From the IMG/VR virus record IMGVR_UViG_3300030329_003927, positions 1-36,132 of that record: 36,132 nucleotides of DNA; one strand, given 5' to 3'. The stretch comes from a virus. The notes under the pieces are model-generated. The model ran no database searches, had not been told where the DNA came from, and worked only from the letters and a program-made list of their open reading frames with translations. Below are positions 1 through 36,132 of this stretch, piece after piece; the first letter of the stretch is position 1, and each line of letters opens with the position of its first letter. A program made the position numbers and the translations under genes.

Positions 1-2620
1 TAGAAGCTCCTTTATCTCCATCTAATATCTCTTGTGGAGTTAATAGTTCATATATGGTTCTTCCGCCATTACGCATTCCAAAGTAATATACTTGTTGGTC
101 CCATATTTGACGAGCCATCCACTGTCTTAATTCTCCACGAGCTTTTGTTGGTAAAGATAAATCTATTTTAGCGTGTTTTTTTACCCAACTCTCAATTGAA
201 TCAGCTAATTCTTCAGAGCGATTAATCTTATTAGGAGCATCTTTTCCAGGTAATAATTTAGATGTTGCTAAATTAATTTGAGCTGCAATATTTAATTCCA
301 TCTCTCCTTTTAATGCTCTATCTCCAATACTATCATAAGCTTTAGAAAGATATTTTCTAGTAAAATCAATAGTAGTCTTTGTTGGGTCTACTCCAATCCC
401 AGGGCTTGTATCTAATGTTTGAGGAGAACCTTCTAAATCATGAATAGCTATAATAGTACCTTTGTCCTCATCTAAAACATATTCTTTTTCAGTGTTAATA
501 TAAACATCACGTTCTTTTTCTATACGCTCAAGCTCTTTATACATCTCTGCAACTTCATTTTCAAGTCTTGCCTCTTCTGTTTTAGGAACAGGTTTATTTG
601 CTAATCTAGCACCTTCACGTAAAGCAGCTAATTCAGATTCTCCATATTGTATTACTTCTTCAACTTCTTTAATTTCTTTATCAATTCTATCTAAAATAGG
701 TTTAAGTATAGTACGTCCTTGAGCCCTTGCTCTTTTTACTTCTTCTATTTCTGATTTAGATAATGCTATCTCTTTGCCTTCATAATGGCTATGTAACCAC
801 GATTTTATAGCTTTCTTGGCCACATCACTAATTTCCCGAGTTCCTATACCTGCCCAGTTTTTTGGAGGCTTAGGAGGGTCTCCTTGTAATCTTTGAAATG
901 TACCAGTATTATAGTTATATTGATGCCATGAATCACTAGTTTCTTTACTGCCTTGCTTACTGTCAAAGACAAATACATTTTTCTTATGACGTATAGCCAT
1001 ATCTATACCCCAGCCTGTACCACCATCGACAACACGCATAGCATTCCTGCCTTTTTTAATAATAGGAGCTGTTGCATATACGGACTGAGCATGTTTAACT
1101 ACATGCCAATTACGTCTAATTAAATCTGTTACATAATCTGTTAAGTTTCCAGTAGGTCTATCAATATTAACACTAGTTTTTTCCATCTCTTTATTAGCTT
1201 CGGCTAATTGGCTTTCTGTTAATTTAACAACTTCTCCTTTTGAACGAACTGCAGTTGGTAAATGTTTTTCAAAACTGTAATGGAAAACAGGAGCTCCTAA
1301 TTCACTCATTACTTCTGCAAAGTACCTATCAGCTCCCTCTGCTCCTCCAGATGTCATGCGTGTTTTAAATTTATCTAAAAATCCTCTTTTACGTTTATAT
1401 GTTGCTACACCAGTATTTTCATTAAACTGCTCCATTTCATAGCCTGGAATCTCTACAGGCTCTTTAAGTTCAGCTTCTAATCTTTCTGGATTAAGCTTCC
1501 CTATAAGAGAATTTATCAATAAATTATCTTCAGGTTTTCCCCATGTTGTTTCTGCCATTTTTTCTAATATTGGCTTTACTTCAGGCTGTACAGATTCCCA
1601 TTCTGGATGCATTTTAATATCATAAGATTCATTTAATTTAGGGTCAGTCTCCATACGTTCTCTAAATTTTCCAAACCATTTATTAGCTTTAGCATGAGTC
1701 CATGGCATTTCACTTTTACCAAAATAAGCACCCATCACGTATTCATAAACTTGTTCTGGAGTAGTTGCTCCTCTCATAGTAGTAGGTAATCCCATAAATA
1801 ATGAACCTGCCATACCACGTGTAAACTTTTGAGCTCCTTCAGATGTTATACCAAGTTTATCTAAGCTAAGATTACCAATTCCTCTAAACACTCCACCAGC
1901 CATTGCACCATGTAAAAAACTATCCATCATTACATCTACACCACCTTGCCAAGCTGATATAGATGATGCCGCTCCTAGATGAAATGCTCCTTCCATAACG
2001 TGACGTGCCATATTGCCTGTTAAAAAATCATATGCAGTACTAGCTGCGCCTACTCTACCCTTTTGAACTTCTCCTATTATAGGCTTAACAATACTTTTTG
2101 CATGTTTAGTTAATATTTTGGCTCCAGCCATAGGAATTGATTTATCATTTAAAGCTCTAGCTGTTTCAGCTAAACTATGTAATGCATTACGTTTAGTAGC
2201 ATGAACTCCTTTTAATGCATTTAATCCTTTAGCTCCTAAACCTAATGGAGTAGCCATAATACCAGGAGCAAATCCCGCTAAGTGACCTAGATTTCTAAAT
2301 ATCTGCTCGTACTCATTGTCAGCAGGTTCCATTAAATTAAAGGTTGTAAAGCCTTCAAAGAATCCAGCTCCAGCTTGTTTTAAGGCATCTATAAGATTAA
2401 ACTCACCTTCGTAAAAAGGTAGTCCATAATACGCAGCGTGTTCTTGAATTTGCTTATTATCGTTTTCAGTATAGTGATGAGCGTACTTACGTTGATTATT
2501 TATTTGGTCACGTGTTTGTTTCTCATCCCATATAGGTTGGAATTGTTGTTGGTTATTCGCAATAGCCTGTTGCTCCTCAGGCTTTGGCTCTGCCACATTA
2601 TATGGCGTATATAATGACAT
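1..2620 (-). CDS. Large virion or ejected protein with SLOG-like domain, partial
   Basis: The reading frame is open from an ATG at 2620 (GGAGG site just upstream) to the left edge, at least 873 codons, so the C-terminus is missing. The first ~120 residues include a short N-L-G-H-L-A-G-F-A-P motif followed by Gly/Ala-rich hydrophobic stretches, as in phage internal virion or polyvalent proteins. Residues ~420-600 read T-S-G-G-A-E-G-A-D-R, then H-Y-S-F-E-K-H, V-D-G-G-T-G-W-G, V-F-V-F-D and G-I-G-T-R-E-I. This order fits a Rossmann-type SLOG/YpsA-like nucleotide-binding domain. A highly charged, probably coiled-coil segment follows (~620-710). It is the last visible gene of the late operon, 8 bases after its neighbour. 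I infer a protein carried in the capsid and possibly injected with DNA; the SLOG call is from motif recall. Confidence 0.7.
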   Translation of the reverse strand, partial: MSLYTPYNVAEPKPEEQQAIANNQQQFQPIWDEKQTRDQINNQRKYAHHYTENDNKQIQEHAAYYGLPFYEGEFNLIDALKQAGAGFFEGFTTFNLMEPADNEYEQIFRNLGHLAGFAPGIMATPLGLGAKGLNALKGVHATKRNALHSLAETARALNDKSIPMAGAKILTKHAKSIVKPIIGEVQKGRVGAASTAYDFLTGNMARHVMEGAFHLGAASSISAWQGGVDVMMDSFLHGAMAGGVFRGIGNLSLDKLGITSEGAQKFTRGMAGSLFMGLPTTMRGATTPEQVYEYVMGAYFGKSEMPWTHAKANKWFGKFRERMETDPKLNESYDIKMHPEWESVQPEVKPILEKMAETTWGKPEDNLLINSLIGKLNPERLEAELKEPVEIPGYEMEQFNENTGVATYKRKRGFLDKFKTRMTSGGAEGADRYFAEVMSELGAPVFHYSFEKHLPTAVRSKGEVVKLTESQLAEANKEMEKTSVNIDRPTGNLTDYVTDLIRRNWHVVKHAQSVYATAPIIKKGRNAMRVVDGGTGWGIDMAIRHKKNVFVFDSKQGSKETSDSWHQYNYNTGTFQRLQGDPPKPPKNWAGIGTREISDVAKKAIKSWLHSHYEGKEIALSKSEIEEVKRARAQGRTILKPILDRIDKEIKEVEEVIQYGESELAALREGARLANKPVPKTEEARLENEVAEMYKELERIEKERDVYINTEKEYVLDEDKGTIIAIHDLEGSPQTLDTSPGIGVDPTKTTIDFTRKYLSKAYDSIGDRALKGEMELNIAAQINLATSKLLPGKDAPNKINRSEELADSIESWVKKHAKIDLSLPTKARGELRQWMARQIWDQQVYYFGMRNGGRTIYELLTPQEILDGDKGAS

Positions 2621-31987: not shown

Positions 31988-32245
31988 ATGGCTACAGAAA
32001 CAGTAGTAACTACAACAGAAACAACTATTCAACTAATGAATGGTACAATGACATTACAACCAACAAGAGTAGTAATGGCAGCAACAGAAAATAATGCAGC
32101 AAATACAGTTGGAGCATTAAGAGAAGAGTTAGGATTATCAGGTCACATATGTGTAAATGATGTTGACTCTTCTGATGCAACACCAATTGCTGAAGATGAT
32201 AGAGTTGTTCATGTTGCAGGTAATAAAAGAGGTGGTAATCAGTAA
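31988..32245 (+). CDS. Ubiquitin-like beta-grasp protein with terminal Gly-Gly
   Basis: 85 residues. After a Thr-rich N-terminus come strand-like T-T-I-Q-L-M-N-G-T, helix T-V-G-A-L-R-E-E-L-G-L (40-50), strand H-I-C-V-N-D-V-D and the E-D-D-R-V-V-H-V-A-G turn-strand seen as 'L-x-D-G-D-x-V' in ThiS/MoaD/Ubl folds. The end is K-R-G82-G83-N-Q. Gly-Gly is the tail E1 enzymes adenylate. The two extra residues mean a protease must trim it first, and the JAB protein nearby can do that in other Ubl systems. Conjugated or carried as a thiocarboxylate; the former is favoured by the E2 partner. Expressed in the same operon as its enzymes. Confidence 0.8.
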   Translation: MATETVVTTTETTIQLMNGTMTLQPTRVVMAATENNAANTVGALREELGLSGHICVNDVDSSDATPIAEDDRVVHVAGNKRGGNQ

Positions 32246-32469
32246 TTATCACATTGGGTACAAATAAGGTTCTTTTAGGTAGAGAAACGCACGCTTATGT
32301 CAATTCGGTTGGTCCAGCAATGGAAAATACCGCAACACAACAAGGTCACGCCTCAAATTCCTAATCAGCTTATTTGATTAATACTAGAATACATCAGGGG
32401 AGGTACTTAGCCTTACCTCAAAGAGACGTGTGCTACAATCTCCCCTGAGATAAAAAGGAGTAAATAAAA
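32246..32469 (+). other. Intergenic region between Ubl and E2 genes
   Basis: 224 bases. It holds a possible 36-residue frame (32254-32364, TTG start, no good ribosome binding site) and a stem-loop with competing pairings (32394-32448). The AAGGAG site for the E2-like gene is at its end. Confidence 0.6.
32394..32448 (+). other. Stem-loop with two competing pairings upstream of the E2-like gene
   Basis: TCAGGGGAG (32394-32402) can pair with CTCCCCTGA (32440-32448, 9 bp). Alternatively GAGGTA (32400-32405) can pair with TACCTC (32414-32419), sharing three bases. The AAGGAG of the next gene is 8 bases beyond. This could switch ribosome access or just be a processing site. Confidence 0.5.
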
Positions 32470-34275
32470 ATGCAATATTCATTTGATTTTACAAAAAAAC
32501 CAGAAACCCCTGATTTAGATTTAAGTCATTTAAATTATCAACAATTATCAGGATTCGCTGAGTTTTCAAGAAACTTAGCTAGCTTTAATGAAAGATATGA
32601 TATGGATTTAGTAGCTACTAGAAGTGCTAGATGGCAACCAGGGACATATAATAAAATAAAAGATAATATTAACAATATATTATATCCACATTGGAAGAAA
32701 AGACGTGGAGCTAATAGTATTCATAAGCTATTAGAAAGAAATAACTGGCGATATCAAAACTTTCAAGATTCATTAGATAAACTTGATACTATGCTATATC
32801 GTTATAGAAAAGATGGAACAGAGCTTTATACTGATGAAGATTTAGATGAAGCTAAAGCATTATTATATGAATTGTTAAATAATTTTACAACAGAACATGA
32901 TAATGTTAAAATAGATATCAGTCCTATTCCTCATTACGGTAGAACACTAAGAAGTTATGTTGGTTCATATGATGATACTAACACTGATAGAGTTGGTAGA
33001 TTATATCCTGAAATTAATGAAAATAATGAAATTACTGGAGTATGGAATACTATTATGTATGAAAGCTTGGACCACGCTAATGATATTAAATACGACCATT
33101 TTGGAGAATCTAATCCAGGTAAATGGTTTATCAATATTAGAATATTATTAGAAGATGTTAAAATAAATGTAACTAACTCTGCTATGACTAAACAATATGC
33201 TGAATTACCTTATGGTAAATTAATAGTATGTTTTACAACAGATTTAGTAACATTGGTTACAAATCATCGTAGAATAAATAAAGGTCAACATCTAGTTAAA
33301 ACTGAATATGTTGGTACAGTAGCTCATAAATTTCCATATATGTATGGAATAGAACATCCATTTATATATACTAGTGATAGATATGGTGGAACTAATATGA
33401 TAAATCATTTCAACACGTATGGTAATGGTAATATATGTTTAGGTGAATTAAGTACTGATATATATGGAGCTATATTCCAAGGTAATATTACATTGCTTAA
33501 AATGTATCTTAATATATGGGCTAATTCATTCTCAGTAGGTGTCACATCTCCACTCAATACTTTAAATAAAGTAACATTTGGTGTAAGAGAAAAATGGGAT
33601 GCAAATGTACGAGCTCATATATCAGGAAGTAATCATGCTTGTCATAAATATATAAAACATGCTAAGAAAGATGAGAAATTAAGCTTTCTTGACAAATTTT
33701 GTAATGGATGCGCTATATTAGACACATGTAAAATATATGCAAAGCTAAATATGGATAAAACATCATGGGCAGATGTAGCTGATGCTAGTTGGCTTCAAGC
33801 ACATAATAAATTATGTATGCATTTATCTGATGAAGTAGATACTAGTAAGATATATGAAATGTTTGCTGATATGTATTACTTTAAAACTATAGAGAGATTC
33901 AATCGTAGAAGTATAGAACGTGTCTTTGGCGAAAATATGAGTGTTAGGGACTTTAAAGATTATCGCGAAATTATAGATAATTTTATATTAACAGGTCCCA
34001 CTGAAGATAACATCGTATTAATATATGAAATGTTTTCACGTGGTTGGACATTAAATAAAGTATATCGTGATAATTCGCAAATGTATGAAGAGCTAGCATT
34101 ACAAACTGAAGGCATGACCTTTGAAGAAGCTATTAGTAAATTAACAAATAACGATATAGAAAATAATCATTATTCTTGGTTATATGCACAAAGATATATA
34201 CCAAGTAGAGATGAGCATTGGACATATAATAAATTCCTTAACGGGAGAGAGGAAGGTGTTAGATATGGCAACTAA
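32470..34275 (+). CDS. E2-like ubiquitin-conjugating enzyme, multidomain
   Basis: 601 residues, much larger than a bare E2 (~150). AAGGAG precedes the ATG by 9 bases. The E2 core is placed at ~215-370. The active-site block is H-F-N-T-Y-G-N-G-N-I-C323-L-G-E-L, matching the E2 H-P-N-x-x-x-x-G-x-I-C-L signature, with C323 as the thioester Cys. It is preceded by a P-x-x-Y/F-x-x-x-x-H-P-F-I-Y segment. A His/Cys cluster follows: H389-x-C391-H392, then C411-x2-C414-x5-C420, a possible zinc site. The N-terminal ~200 and C-terminal ~150 residues are helical and unrecognised. It transfers the Ubl from the E1 to a target and may itself bind substrates. Its end overlaps the JAB start by 11 bases. The E2 call rests on the signature plus neighbours. 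Confidence 0.8.
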   Translation: MQYSFDFTKKPETPDLDLSHLNYQQLSGFAEFSRNLASFNERYDMDLVATRSARWQPGTYNKIKDNINNILYPHWKKRRGANSIHKLLERNNWRYQNFQDSLDKLDTMLYRYRKDGTELYTDEDLDEAKALLYELLNNFTTEHDNVKIDISPIPHYGRTLRSYVGSYDDTNTDRVGRLYPEINENNEITGVWNTIMYESLDHANDIKYDHFGESNPGKWFINIRILLEDVKINVTNSAMTKQYAELPYGKLIVCFTTDLVTLVTNHRRINKGQHLVKTEYVGTVAHKFPYMYGIEHPFIYTSDRYGGTNMINHFNTYGNGNICLGELSTDIYGAIFQGNITLLKMYLNIWANSFSVGVTSPLNTLNKVTFGVREKWDANVRAHISGSNHACHKYIKHAKKDEKLSFLDKFCNGCAILDTCKIYAKLNMDKTSWADVADASWLQAHNKLCMHLSDEVDTSKIYEMFADMYYFKTIERFNRRSIERVFGENMSVRDFKDYREIIDNFILTGPTEDNIVLIYEMFSRGWTLNKVYRDNSQMYEELALQTEGMTFEEAISKLTNNDIENNHYSWLYAQRYIPSRDEHWTYNKFLNGREEGVRYGN

Positions 34276-35203
34276 ACCTGAACAAAATAAAAACAAAAAG
34301 TTCTACATATCACGTGAGAACTTCGATAAAGTCATAGCATATGCTGAATCAGCTTATAGACAATTTACGTCTGAAATAGGTGGTCAGCTAGTTGTTTTAG
34401 AAGATACAGATGGTGATTATATATTAGAAGACCCTGTAATTCTTAAACAAGAAATATCAGCTAGTAATTGTGAGCTTGATGGTGGACAACTAGCAGTTCA
34501 TTATTCTAAAATGATAGGTAAACATGGTAATAATGTAAGACATTGTTGGTGGCATAGTCATCATACAATGGGAGCATTTTGGTCAGGTACTGACGATGCT
34601 ACTATATTAAGCCATCCTGCTGATGACTGGACATTATCTTTAGTAGTTAATTTAAAGAGAGAATATAAATTACGTATTCAATTCTTTAAACCATTTCTAC
34701 ACGAAGAAAATGTAGAATTAAACTTCCTTCAAGAAGAGCATGAAACCAATGATGTAATAGATAAAGAAGTTAAAGCATTATGCAGTAAAGAAACTTCATC
34801 TGTTATAACCTATGGTGGCAAAGGAACTCAAGGTACATTATGGCCTCAAAATAAACAAAGACCTTCACATGGGTATGGGTATGGCTATAATTATGGCTAT
34901 ACTTATGATTTATGGGATGATGTAGATGAACTTGAGTTAACAGGCGTTCCTAGTAAATTGTTTGAAGTATGCGTAGAAGAAATGGATAAATTATCTGATA
35001 ATTTAACTGATGGTTCTATAAAACTAAAAGGTTTTCGTAAAGGCATAAAAAGCATTAACGAAAAACTGCAACAATATAATGTTAGAGTATTGCCAAGTAT
35101 ATCAAAAGGTAATAGGACTGATATAGAAAATGAATTACTATATCTACATGCACATGATATGTTTGAAAATATACAGAAAGGAAGTGTTCAAAATGCGAAT
35201 TAA
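34265..35203 (+). CDS. JAMM/JAB metalloprotease, Ubl isopeptidase
   Basis: 312 residues from ATG 34265, chosen for its GAGAGGAAGG site (a start at 34184 lies inside the E2-like gene). The JAMM zinc site is complete: E37 (S-E-I-G-G), then H97-S-H99, seven residues, S107-x2-D110. Such enzymes cleave after Gly-Gly to process Ubl precursors or remove the tag from targets. A Gly/Tyr low-complexity run follows (~198-215, G-Y-G-Y-G-Y-N-Y-G-Y), then a helical C-terminal ~100 residues of unknown role. It overlaps the E1 start by 11 bases, so translation is likely coupled. Confidence 0.92.
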   Translation: MATKPEQNKNKKFYISRENFDKVIAYAESAYRQFTSEIGGQLVVLEDTDGDYILEDPVILKQEISASNCELDGGQLAVHYSKMIGKHGNNVRHCWWHSHHTMGAFWSGTDDATILSHPADDWTLSLVVNLKREYKLRIQFFKPFLHEENVELNFLQEEHETNDVIDKEVKALCSKETSSVITYGGKGTQGTLWPQNKQRPSHGYGYGYNYGYTYDLWDDVDELELTGVPSKLFEVCVEEMDKLSDNLTDGSIKLKGFRKGIKSINEKLQQYNVRVLPSISKGNRTDIENELLYLHAHDMFENIQKGSVQNAN

Positions 35204-35849
35204 TGAAAGAAGCTTGCATTTAGTCAATGATTTTGATGATAAAATCTTTCACATTCTTGGTTGCGGGGCTATTGGTAGTTCCGCAGCTACTCAACTAGCA
35301 AGAATGGGTGCAATGCAATTTGTATTGTATGACTTAGATAAAGTTGAGATACAAAATGTTGGTGTAAGCCACTACATATATAAGGATATACAAAAACCTA
35401 AAGTAGTAGCATTACGTGAACATTTAGAAAACATAAACCCAGAAGTACGTGTTCATGAACAATACGGTAGATTTACCGAGTTCATTAAGCCCATAGGAGA
35501 AGGTGACATAGTAGTTTTAGGGTTTGACAGTATGGATAGTCGCTTAGAAGCCGCGGAGGAATCTATGAAAGGTAAAAATAAACCTTATCTTTTAATAGAT
35601 GGCCGTATGGGTGCGGAGGAATATCATCAGTTTACATTTAGGAAACCAACTCTTAAGGAATATAAGAAAACATGGTATCCCGATGTAATGGCTGAAGATG
35701 AGCCATGCAATGCTAAAGCGACTTCCTACTGTTCTAACATGAGTGGAGCTTTTATAGCTAACACTATAAAGAAAACGTTAAATGATGAAGATTGCCCTAA
35801 ACAATTTTTCTTTACATTTCCAGCTTTAGTGCTTGGAAAACCAAAGTAA
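35193..35849 (+). CDS. E1-like ThiF/MoeB-family adenylyltransferase
   Basis: 218 residues from ATG 35193 (AAAGGAAG upstream). The Rossmann nucleotide site is L-G23-C-G25-A-I-G28-S, followed by L-Y-D47-L-D-K-V-E, I-Q-N55-V-G-V, and D-I-Q-K-P-K-V-V-A-L, the usual E1 order. D112 lies in the V-L-G-F-D-S-M-D strand. C172 (D-E-P-C-N), C180 (S-Y-C-S-N-M-S-G) and C201 are candidate thioester cysteines. It lacks the R of the canonical N-L-x-R-Q block (here N-V-G-V-S-H) and a C-terminal Ubl-fold domain; both are seen in some compact ThiF forms. It activates the Ubl for the E2. Confidence 0.9.
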   Translation: MRINERSLHLVNDFDDKIFHILGCGAIGSSAATQLARMGAMQFVLYDLDKVEIQNVGVSHYIYKDIQKPKVVALREHLENINPEVRVHEQYGRFTEFIKPIGEGDIVVLGFDSMDSRLEAAEESMKGKNKPYLLIDGRMGAEEYHQFTFRKPTLKEYKKTWYPDVMAEDEPCNAKATSYCSNMSGAFIANTIKKTLNDEDCPKQFFFTFPALVLGKPK

Positions 35850-36007: not shown

Positions 36008-36132
36008 ATGGTACTAAAAGTAGCAAAGAGAAAAGCTGTTTCTCAAAATCCAAGTACGCTATTAATGTATGGCCCTCCTAAAATCGGTAAAACTACAATG
36101 TTATCCAGATTAGACAAATGTCTTATCATTGA
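36008..36132 (+). CDS. P-loop ATPase (AAA_24/Sak4-like), partial
   Basis: The first 41 codons are present and the frame continues past the right edge. CGGAG precedes the ATG. After a basic start (M-V-L-K-V-A-K-R-K-A), the sequence L-L-M-Y-G-P-P-K-I-G-K-T-T is a Walker A motif in the 'G-P-P-K-x-G-K-T-T' form typical of phage RecA-like single-strand annealing ATPases (Sak4/AAA_24). It begins the recombination or replication block. Enzyme subtype is uncertain until the rest is seen. Confidence 0.7.
   Translation, partial: MVLKVAKRKAVSQNPSTLLMYGPPKIGKTTMLSRLDKCLII

Follow-up and report, generated by a model that had tools for sequence, protein, structure and literature searches.

Ubiquitin-like (Ubl) protein conjugation in bacteria has so far been known mainly as a cellular antiphage defence, and the locus described here raises the question of whether a phage carries such a pathway of its own and what that pathway would modify. 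The window, by which we mean the whole stretch of DNA analysed (an IMG/VR virus record of 36,132 bases with genes for terminase, portal and major head protein on its minus strand), contains a cassette of four plus-strand open reading frames (ORFs) at 31988-35849, as the sequence-only reading had claimed in calling the genes co-directional. Its statement that the last three genes overlap by 11 bases holds as two 11-base overlaps (E2-like/JAB and JAB/E1), given ribosome-site-supported starts; the JAB length, for example, was counted from an ATG preceded by a Shine-Dalgarno sequence. The gene next after E1 is a neighbour outside the cassette, the start of a Sak4-like single-strand-annealing ATPase (36008-36132, plus strand; phrog_124, E 8.5e-6), which the contig end cuts.

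The four ORFs are genuine genes that go together. Scanning IMG/VR with an E1 profile, restricted to two exact peptide patterns, revealed 349 related viral loci, a spread far wider than one sequence could tell, and the 30 non-redundant loci with complete cassettes all had the order Ubl-"E2"-JAB-E1 on one strand, with no other gene order seen among them. Since this order is shared by 30 non-redundant relatives and all four genes are under purifying selection (dN/dS 0-0.47), their co-occurrence goes beyond chance; distances among the four proteins also correlate (r 0.81-0.92, Mantel p 0.001). In 84,980 cellular species a scan likewise limited to exact peptide patterns brought up no cassette, just two generic 32-residue matches, while among isolates E1 relatives were found in 76 phage records, nearly all of them crAss-like Bacteroides or Flavobacterium phages. 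Two loci have extra genes between the Ubl and E2-like genes (L083:1988-3756, 1.8 kb; L087:605-3765, 3.2 kb), the second insert including an ORF whose sequence (GCMYKCNYCYM) looks radical-SAM-like. A 47.5-kb contig showed no exact overlap of its ends that would mark it as circular.

Three of the four products can be assigned securely from their sequences, supplemented by a structural model for the Ubl. The last gene (35193-35849, plus strand, 218 aa) is predicted to encode a minimal E1 of the ThiF/MoeB/UBA5 type, and the earlier call of a ThiF-type E1 is confirmed by a Pfam ThiF match at E=1.4e-20. The best NCBIfam model was likewise ThiF in 21/21 members, and profile searches of the PDB returned UBA6, MccB, UBA5, ThiF and MoeB, with PaaA also among the best matches. 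Across 36 non-redundant relatives, crAss-like and Flavobacterium phages included, the ATP-site residues (GxGxxG, the acidic residues D47, D49 and D112, N55, K70 and the Arg-finger Arg6) were kept in 35-36 members and Cys172 (35706-35708) in all 36. Cys172, whose position resembles that of the active cysteines of ThiF and UBA5, is the predicted thioester cysteine.

The product of the third gene (34265-35203, plus strand, 312 aa) is identified by its motif as a JAB/JAMM metallopeptidase, bearing Glu37 (34373-34375) and H97-S-H99-x7-S107-x2-D110 (34553-34594). All zinc ligands that had been read from the letters (E37, H97, H99 and D110, together with S107) were verified, the H,S,H,S,D set being kept in 52/52 relatives and the glutamate in 49/52, again with crAss-like and Flavobacterium phages included. 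Matches to Pfam Prok-JAB (E 0.003 for the window copy, down to 2.8e-5 for relatives) all fell below the curated cut-off. In Flavobacterium phage Fpv1 (L012:3653-5945) JAB is divided into two ORFs with an opposite-strand gene between them, possibly a mobile insert.

The first gene (31988-32245, plus strand) encodes an 85-aa Ubl modifier precursor. The product had been described as a Gly-Gly-ended beta-grasp protein; the beta-grasp part stands, whereas the Gly-Gly is not the end, as Gly82-Gly83 (32231-32236) are followed by Asn-Gln (...KRGGNQ) and trimming would therefore be needed. The AF2 model (pLDDT 70.8) had Caldiarchaeum ubiquitin as its top PDB match by Foldseek, followed mainly by TGS, NEDD8, SAMP1 and other beta-grasp proteins (best E 0.012, none <0.001), so that the beta-grasp fold, whose absence would have spoken against the first reading, is what the best matches support. 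Pfam ThiS was matched by 12/27 Ubl relatives (best E 9.5e-5). Gly-Gly is present in 27/27 relatives, mostly as K-x-G-G, although identity falls to about 25-50%; some relatives stop exactly at GG, and most, the window copy included, have a short tail (0-10 aa, with one of 101 aa). Variable tails after an invariant Gly-Gly call for a trimming peptidase, a job for JAB. The protein with the 101-residue extension (L066:637-1188) is a natural candidate substrate of such processing.

The identity of the fourth product, a 601-aa protein (32470-34275, plus strand) roughly fourfold the length of a UBC domain, is less certain. The E2 signature H-x-N-x5-G-N-I-C-L attributed to it was upheld in part: Cys323 (33436-33438), the putative transfer cysteine, is invariant in 33/33 relatives, as are P297, W350, P361 and N363, and the GNxC is kept, whereas H315 and N317 vary across the family. 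Conserved instead are an HP[FY][IV] motif (its HP at 33355-33360) about 26 residues N-terminal to Cys323 and a G-N-x-C-x-G strip, after which come two helices and a P-x-N motif. Short members of the family read HPYV-x(7-9)-GNVCMG, near the HPNI-x5-ICL arrangement of E2s without the Asn; the HPN tripeptide of E2s is absent, its Asn position being Phe or Tyr. H296 and the cysteines C391, C411, C414 and C420 (33640-33729) are kept in 31-32/33 relatives, and the four-cysteine cluster suggests a probable zinc or other metal site. Conservation is lowest in the C-terminal half (13% mean pairwise identity vs 24% in the core).

Searches for an E2 fold were negative within their scope. Sequence searches of Pfam, NCBIfam and the PDB returned no E2 match for the 601-aa protein; hhalign against three human E2s gave only a non-significant match of 14-15 columns, and its alignments to a Cap2 and to a plasmid UBC protein fell short of significance. 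The AF2 model (pLDDT 85.3) has an order of secondary structure partly like that of E2, and by fold it strongly matched six viral proteins and weakly matched several crAss-like proteins, among them a cr128_1 protein of 435 residues, the length of the gene in its cassette's E2 position. A Foldseek search of the PDB with the whole 601-residue chain found no E2 among its matches (best E 0.22); the absence of an E2 fold had been named beforehand as the outcome that would count against the assignment, and a whole-chain search is not decisive on that point. The E2 fold is unproven because neither sequence nor fold search recovered a UBC/E2 domain. As no E2 was found and the crAss-like fold matches are weak, we prefer the name "E2-like cysteine protein" to E2, while the motif, the gene order and the invariance of Cys323 lead us to infer an E2-like carrier. 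The claim of a complete phage Ubl-conjugation set is accordingly narrowed: there is good support for a set of Ubl, E1 and JAMM proteins plus a fourth whose cysteine is invariant, and the identity of that fourth protein as an E2 is not proven. A match of the E2-like protein to Vibrio phage 2.275.O was dismissed as chance, since it fell on a P-loop ATPase ORF with an E of 0.4.

Building on the computed gene set, its order and conservation, the catalytic residues of E1 and JAB, the beta-grasp Ubl and the replication context described below, we propose a phage-borne Ubl-conjugation pathway expressed with DNA replication and recombination genes, to which we assign a probability of about 0.6. In such a pathway, JAB would trim the Ubl precursor after Gly83; a probably homodimeric ThiF/UBA5-like E1 would adenylate the Gly-Gly end and hold the Ubl as a Cys172 thioester; and the Ubl would be handed to Cys323 of the 601-aa protein, acting as an E2-like carrier. 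The variable helical C-terminal part of that protein, behind the probable zinc site, may pick targets, whose amino groups, on phage replication or host proteins, would be joined to the Ubl, and JAB may also take the Ubl off again. A more far-reaching version, that this is a widespread virus-encoded system in which the phage covalently modifies its replication and recombination proteins, that the transfer is made by a new kind of cysteine enzyme outside the UBC family whose zinc part recognises the targets, and that crAss-like gut phages hold the same pathway unrecognised, is put forward as tentative, with the odds against it.

The strongest rival is a sulphur-carrier pathway, in which the ThiF-like E1 would make a Ubl thiocarboxylate, JAB would recycle the Ubl (as in CysO/Mec and TtuB) and the 601-aa Cys-rich protein would be a sulphur-using enzyme, for instance one thiolating nucleotides, DNA or tRNA in the vicinity of the replication genes. 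It owes this rank to ThiF being the top-scoring family for E1 and to the lack of any E2 match for the fourth protein. The ThiS matches in the Ubl family, and the invariant cysteine and conserved four-Cys cluster of the 601-aa protein, are in keeping with it, and operons joining JAB, ThiS and E1 in sulphur metabolism are described in Iyer 2006 (PMC1779556). JAB and the E1 cysteine are compatible with both the conjugation and the sulphur-carrier reading. On the other hand, no gene for a rhodanese, SirA, a cysteine desulphurase or a PP-loop protein was recognised in the cassette region of the window, nor in the 9-17 kb annotated neighbourhood of the reference cassettes, and Cys323 lies within an E2-like G-N-x-C motif; we therefore consider a sulphur carrier unlikely. 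Another proposal is that the 601-aa protein is a substrate or scaffold: it, or else a small molecule, would receive the Ubl straight from E1, with no wider conjugation. The best PDB matches for E1 include MccB, which modifies a peptide, and the peptide-acting PaaA, and the failure to find an E2 fold points the same way; yet Cys323 is invariant within its E2-like motif and a JAMM peptidase is present in every cassette, and we regard this arrangement as distinctly improbable.

A different purpose, counter-defence, was among those raised when the locus was first read: the phage set would feed on or block a host Ubl defence such as Bil or CBASS Cap2/Cap3, either as a competitor for its Ubl, E1 or targets or through removal of host conjugates by JAB. 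Bacterial Ubl systems do act against phages (PMC10097602), and the highest evolutionary rate is that of the E2-like gene (dN/dS 0.37-0.47 vs 0.14-0.22 for E1). Blocking a host system, however, needs no self-contained set with its own modifier, and 349 loci amount to a widespread distribution, unlike that of patchy anti-defence genes. The genomic context also speaks against it, the cassette lying inside a replication/recombination module, not in an accessory island, in two distant phage groups. Among 65 non-redundant loci surveyed downstream (in 58 the DNA extends 1.5 kb or more past E1), ORFs of one P-loop ATPase family (Sak4-like, a name backed by the phrog_124 match of the window copy) lie just 3' of E1 in 41, and ORFs that read from their sequences as SSB-like and primase-like lie 3' of E1 in 38 and 49, respectively; in crAss-like phages DNA primase lies on one side of the cassette and uracil-DNA glycosylase on the other. 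With two distant phage groups keeping the cassette in the replication block, a defence-specific trick would seem the less likely role, and we rate counter-defence as quite unlikely. The position argues for a putative core role in infection over that of an anti-defence accessory, and it favours, as targets of the proposed conjugation pathway, replication or recombination proteins, or host proteins early in infection.

The four-gene layout of the window is shared by crAss-like phages (crAss001 gp79-gp76; cr111_1; DAC15) and Flavobacterium phage Fpv1. Their E1 is homologous (26-30% identity), as is their JAB, with JAMM intact, and they have a Ubl-like gene with K-S/R-G(G) and then a tail, a Cys protein in the E2 position and a replication context; the Ubl and E2 counterparts were assigned by position and features. 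Hhalign of the window Ubl against its crAss counterpart was not significant, and the crAss protein in the E2 position showed weak fold similarity to that of the window and no hhalign match. In crAss001 (L026:3214-7624) the genes of this layout are annotated as hypothetical, metalloprotease and thiamine biosynthesis ThiF. Public phage records label cassette E1 genes as thiamine-biosynthesis ThiF, an annotation that our analysis corrects. A search of literature available without subscription found no paper on the full set in phages and none linking the crAss ThiF with ubiquitin. If the conjugation reading is true, viruses of bacteria, hundreds of uncultured phages among them, run a Ubl pathway themselves, tied to DNA replication, and cultivable phages with the matching layout, crAss001 and Flavobacterium phage isolates, offer a direct way to test it.

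Among cellular systems, the antiphage operon BilABCD has the gene order Ubl, E2, JAB, E1, which the phage cassette would match if its E2-like protein is an E2; Bil, however, is a cellular defence, whereas the window cassette is viral. Within PADLOC no Bil model appeared among the best 25 matches listed for the E1, and none for the Ubl, E2-like or JAB proteins; the listed matches gave only CBASS-type E1-E2 models. The E1 matched the PADLOC E1-E2 model at E 7.7e-15 and NCBIfam 6A-MBL at 4.8e-10, and CBASS Cap2/Cap3 and 6A-MBL have a similar E1 adenylation domain and share the JAB peptidase (PMC1779556, PMC10097602). In CBASS, though, a single fusion protein combines E1 with E2, and it is cGAS/CD-NTase that becomes modified, whereas the phage has separate genes and a true Ubl, and no CD-NTase was recognised among the neighbouring genes searched. 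For PRTRC, whose hallmark genes are PRTRC_A/B/C and ParB, matches were weak (PRTRC_A, E 0.018; PRTRC_ThiF, E 0.0026) and far below cut-off, and the features that define CBASS and PRTRC are absent. In Iyer 2006 (PMC1779556), CBASS and 6A-MBL correspond to operon types 6a-6b, and type 6d shares with the phage a small Ubl with C-terminal Gly, a Cys E2-like protein, JAB and E1; type 6d is cellular and has an extra alpha-helical protein and a JAB-N domain, whereas the phage E2-like protein is larger and carries the Cys cluster. For phages, the passages of that survey on them give just the Ubl-JAB pair in lambda-like tail genes: lambda/T1 tail assembly I-K shares a phage Ubl plus JAB but is without E1 or E2 and belongs to tail genes, as opposed to the replication genes around the cassette. 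By analogy, the cassette would resemble Bil, CBASS Cap2/Cap3 and the type 6d operons in its working, with membership established in none of them.

Between the Ubl and E2-like genes, directly 5' of the E2-like ribosome site, lies a stable RNA hairpin (32394-32448, plus strand; window fold z -3.6) with no match in Rfam. Single-sequence folds placed hairpins of differing sequence at the same position in most relatives, which suggests a conserved structure and possibly a new regulatory RNA family; speculatively, the hairpin could set Ubl above enzyme levels. Stem sequences have changed yet stayed complementary in the window (32246-32469) and upstream of the E2-like gene in L009, L052, L062, L079 and L101, and in seven close relatives the non-coding stretch is about 225-247 bases long with 74% mean column identity. 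At the opposite end of the window, adjoining the structural genes, a large open-ended ORF (2-2620, minus strand; 873 aa in the window) has a DprA-like domain match in the middle of the protein (phrog_768, E 2.8e-11).
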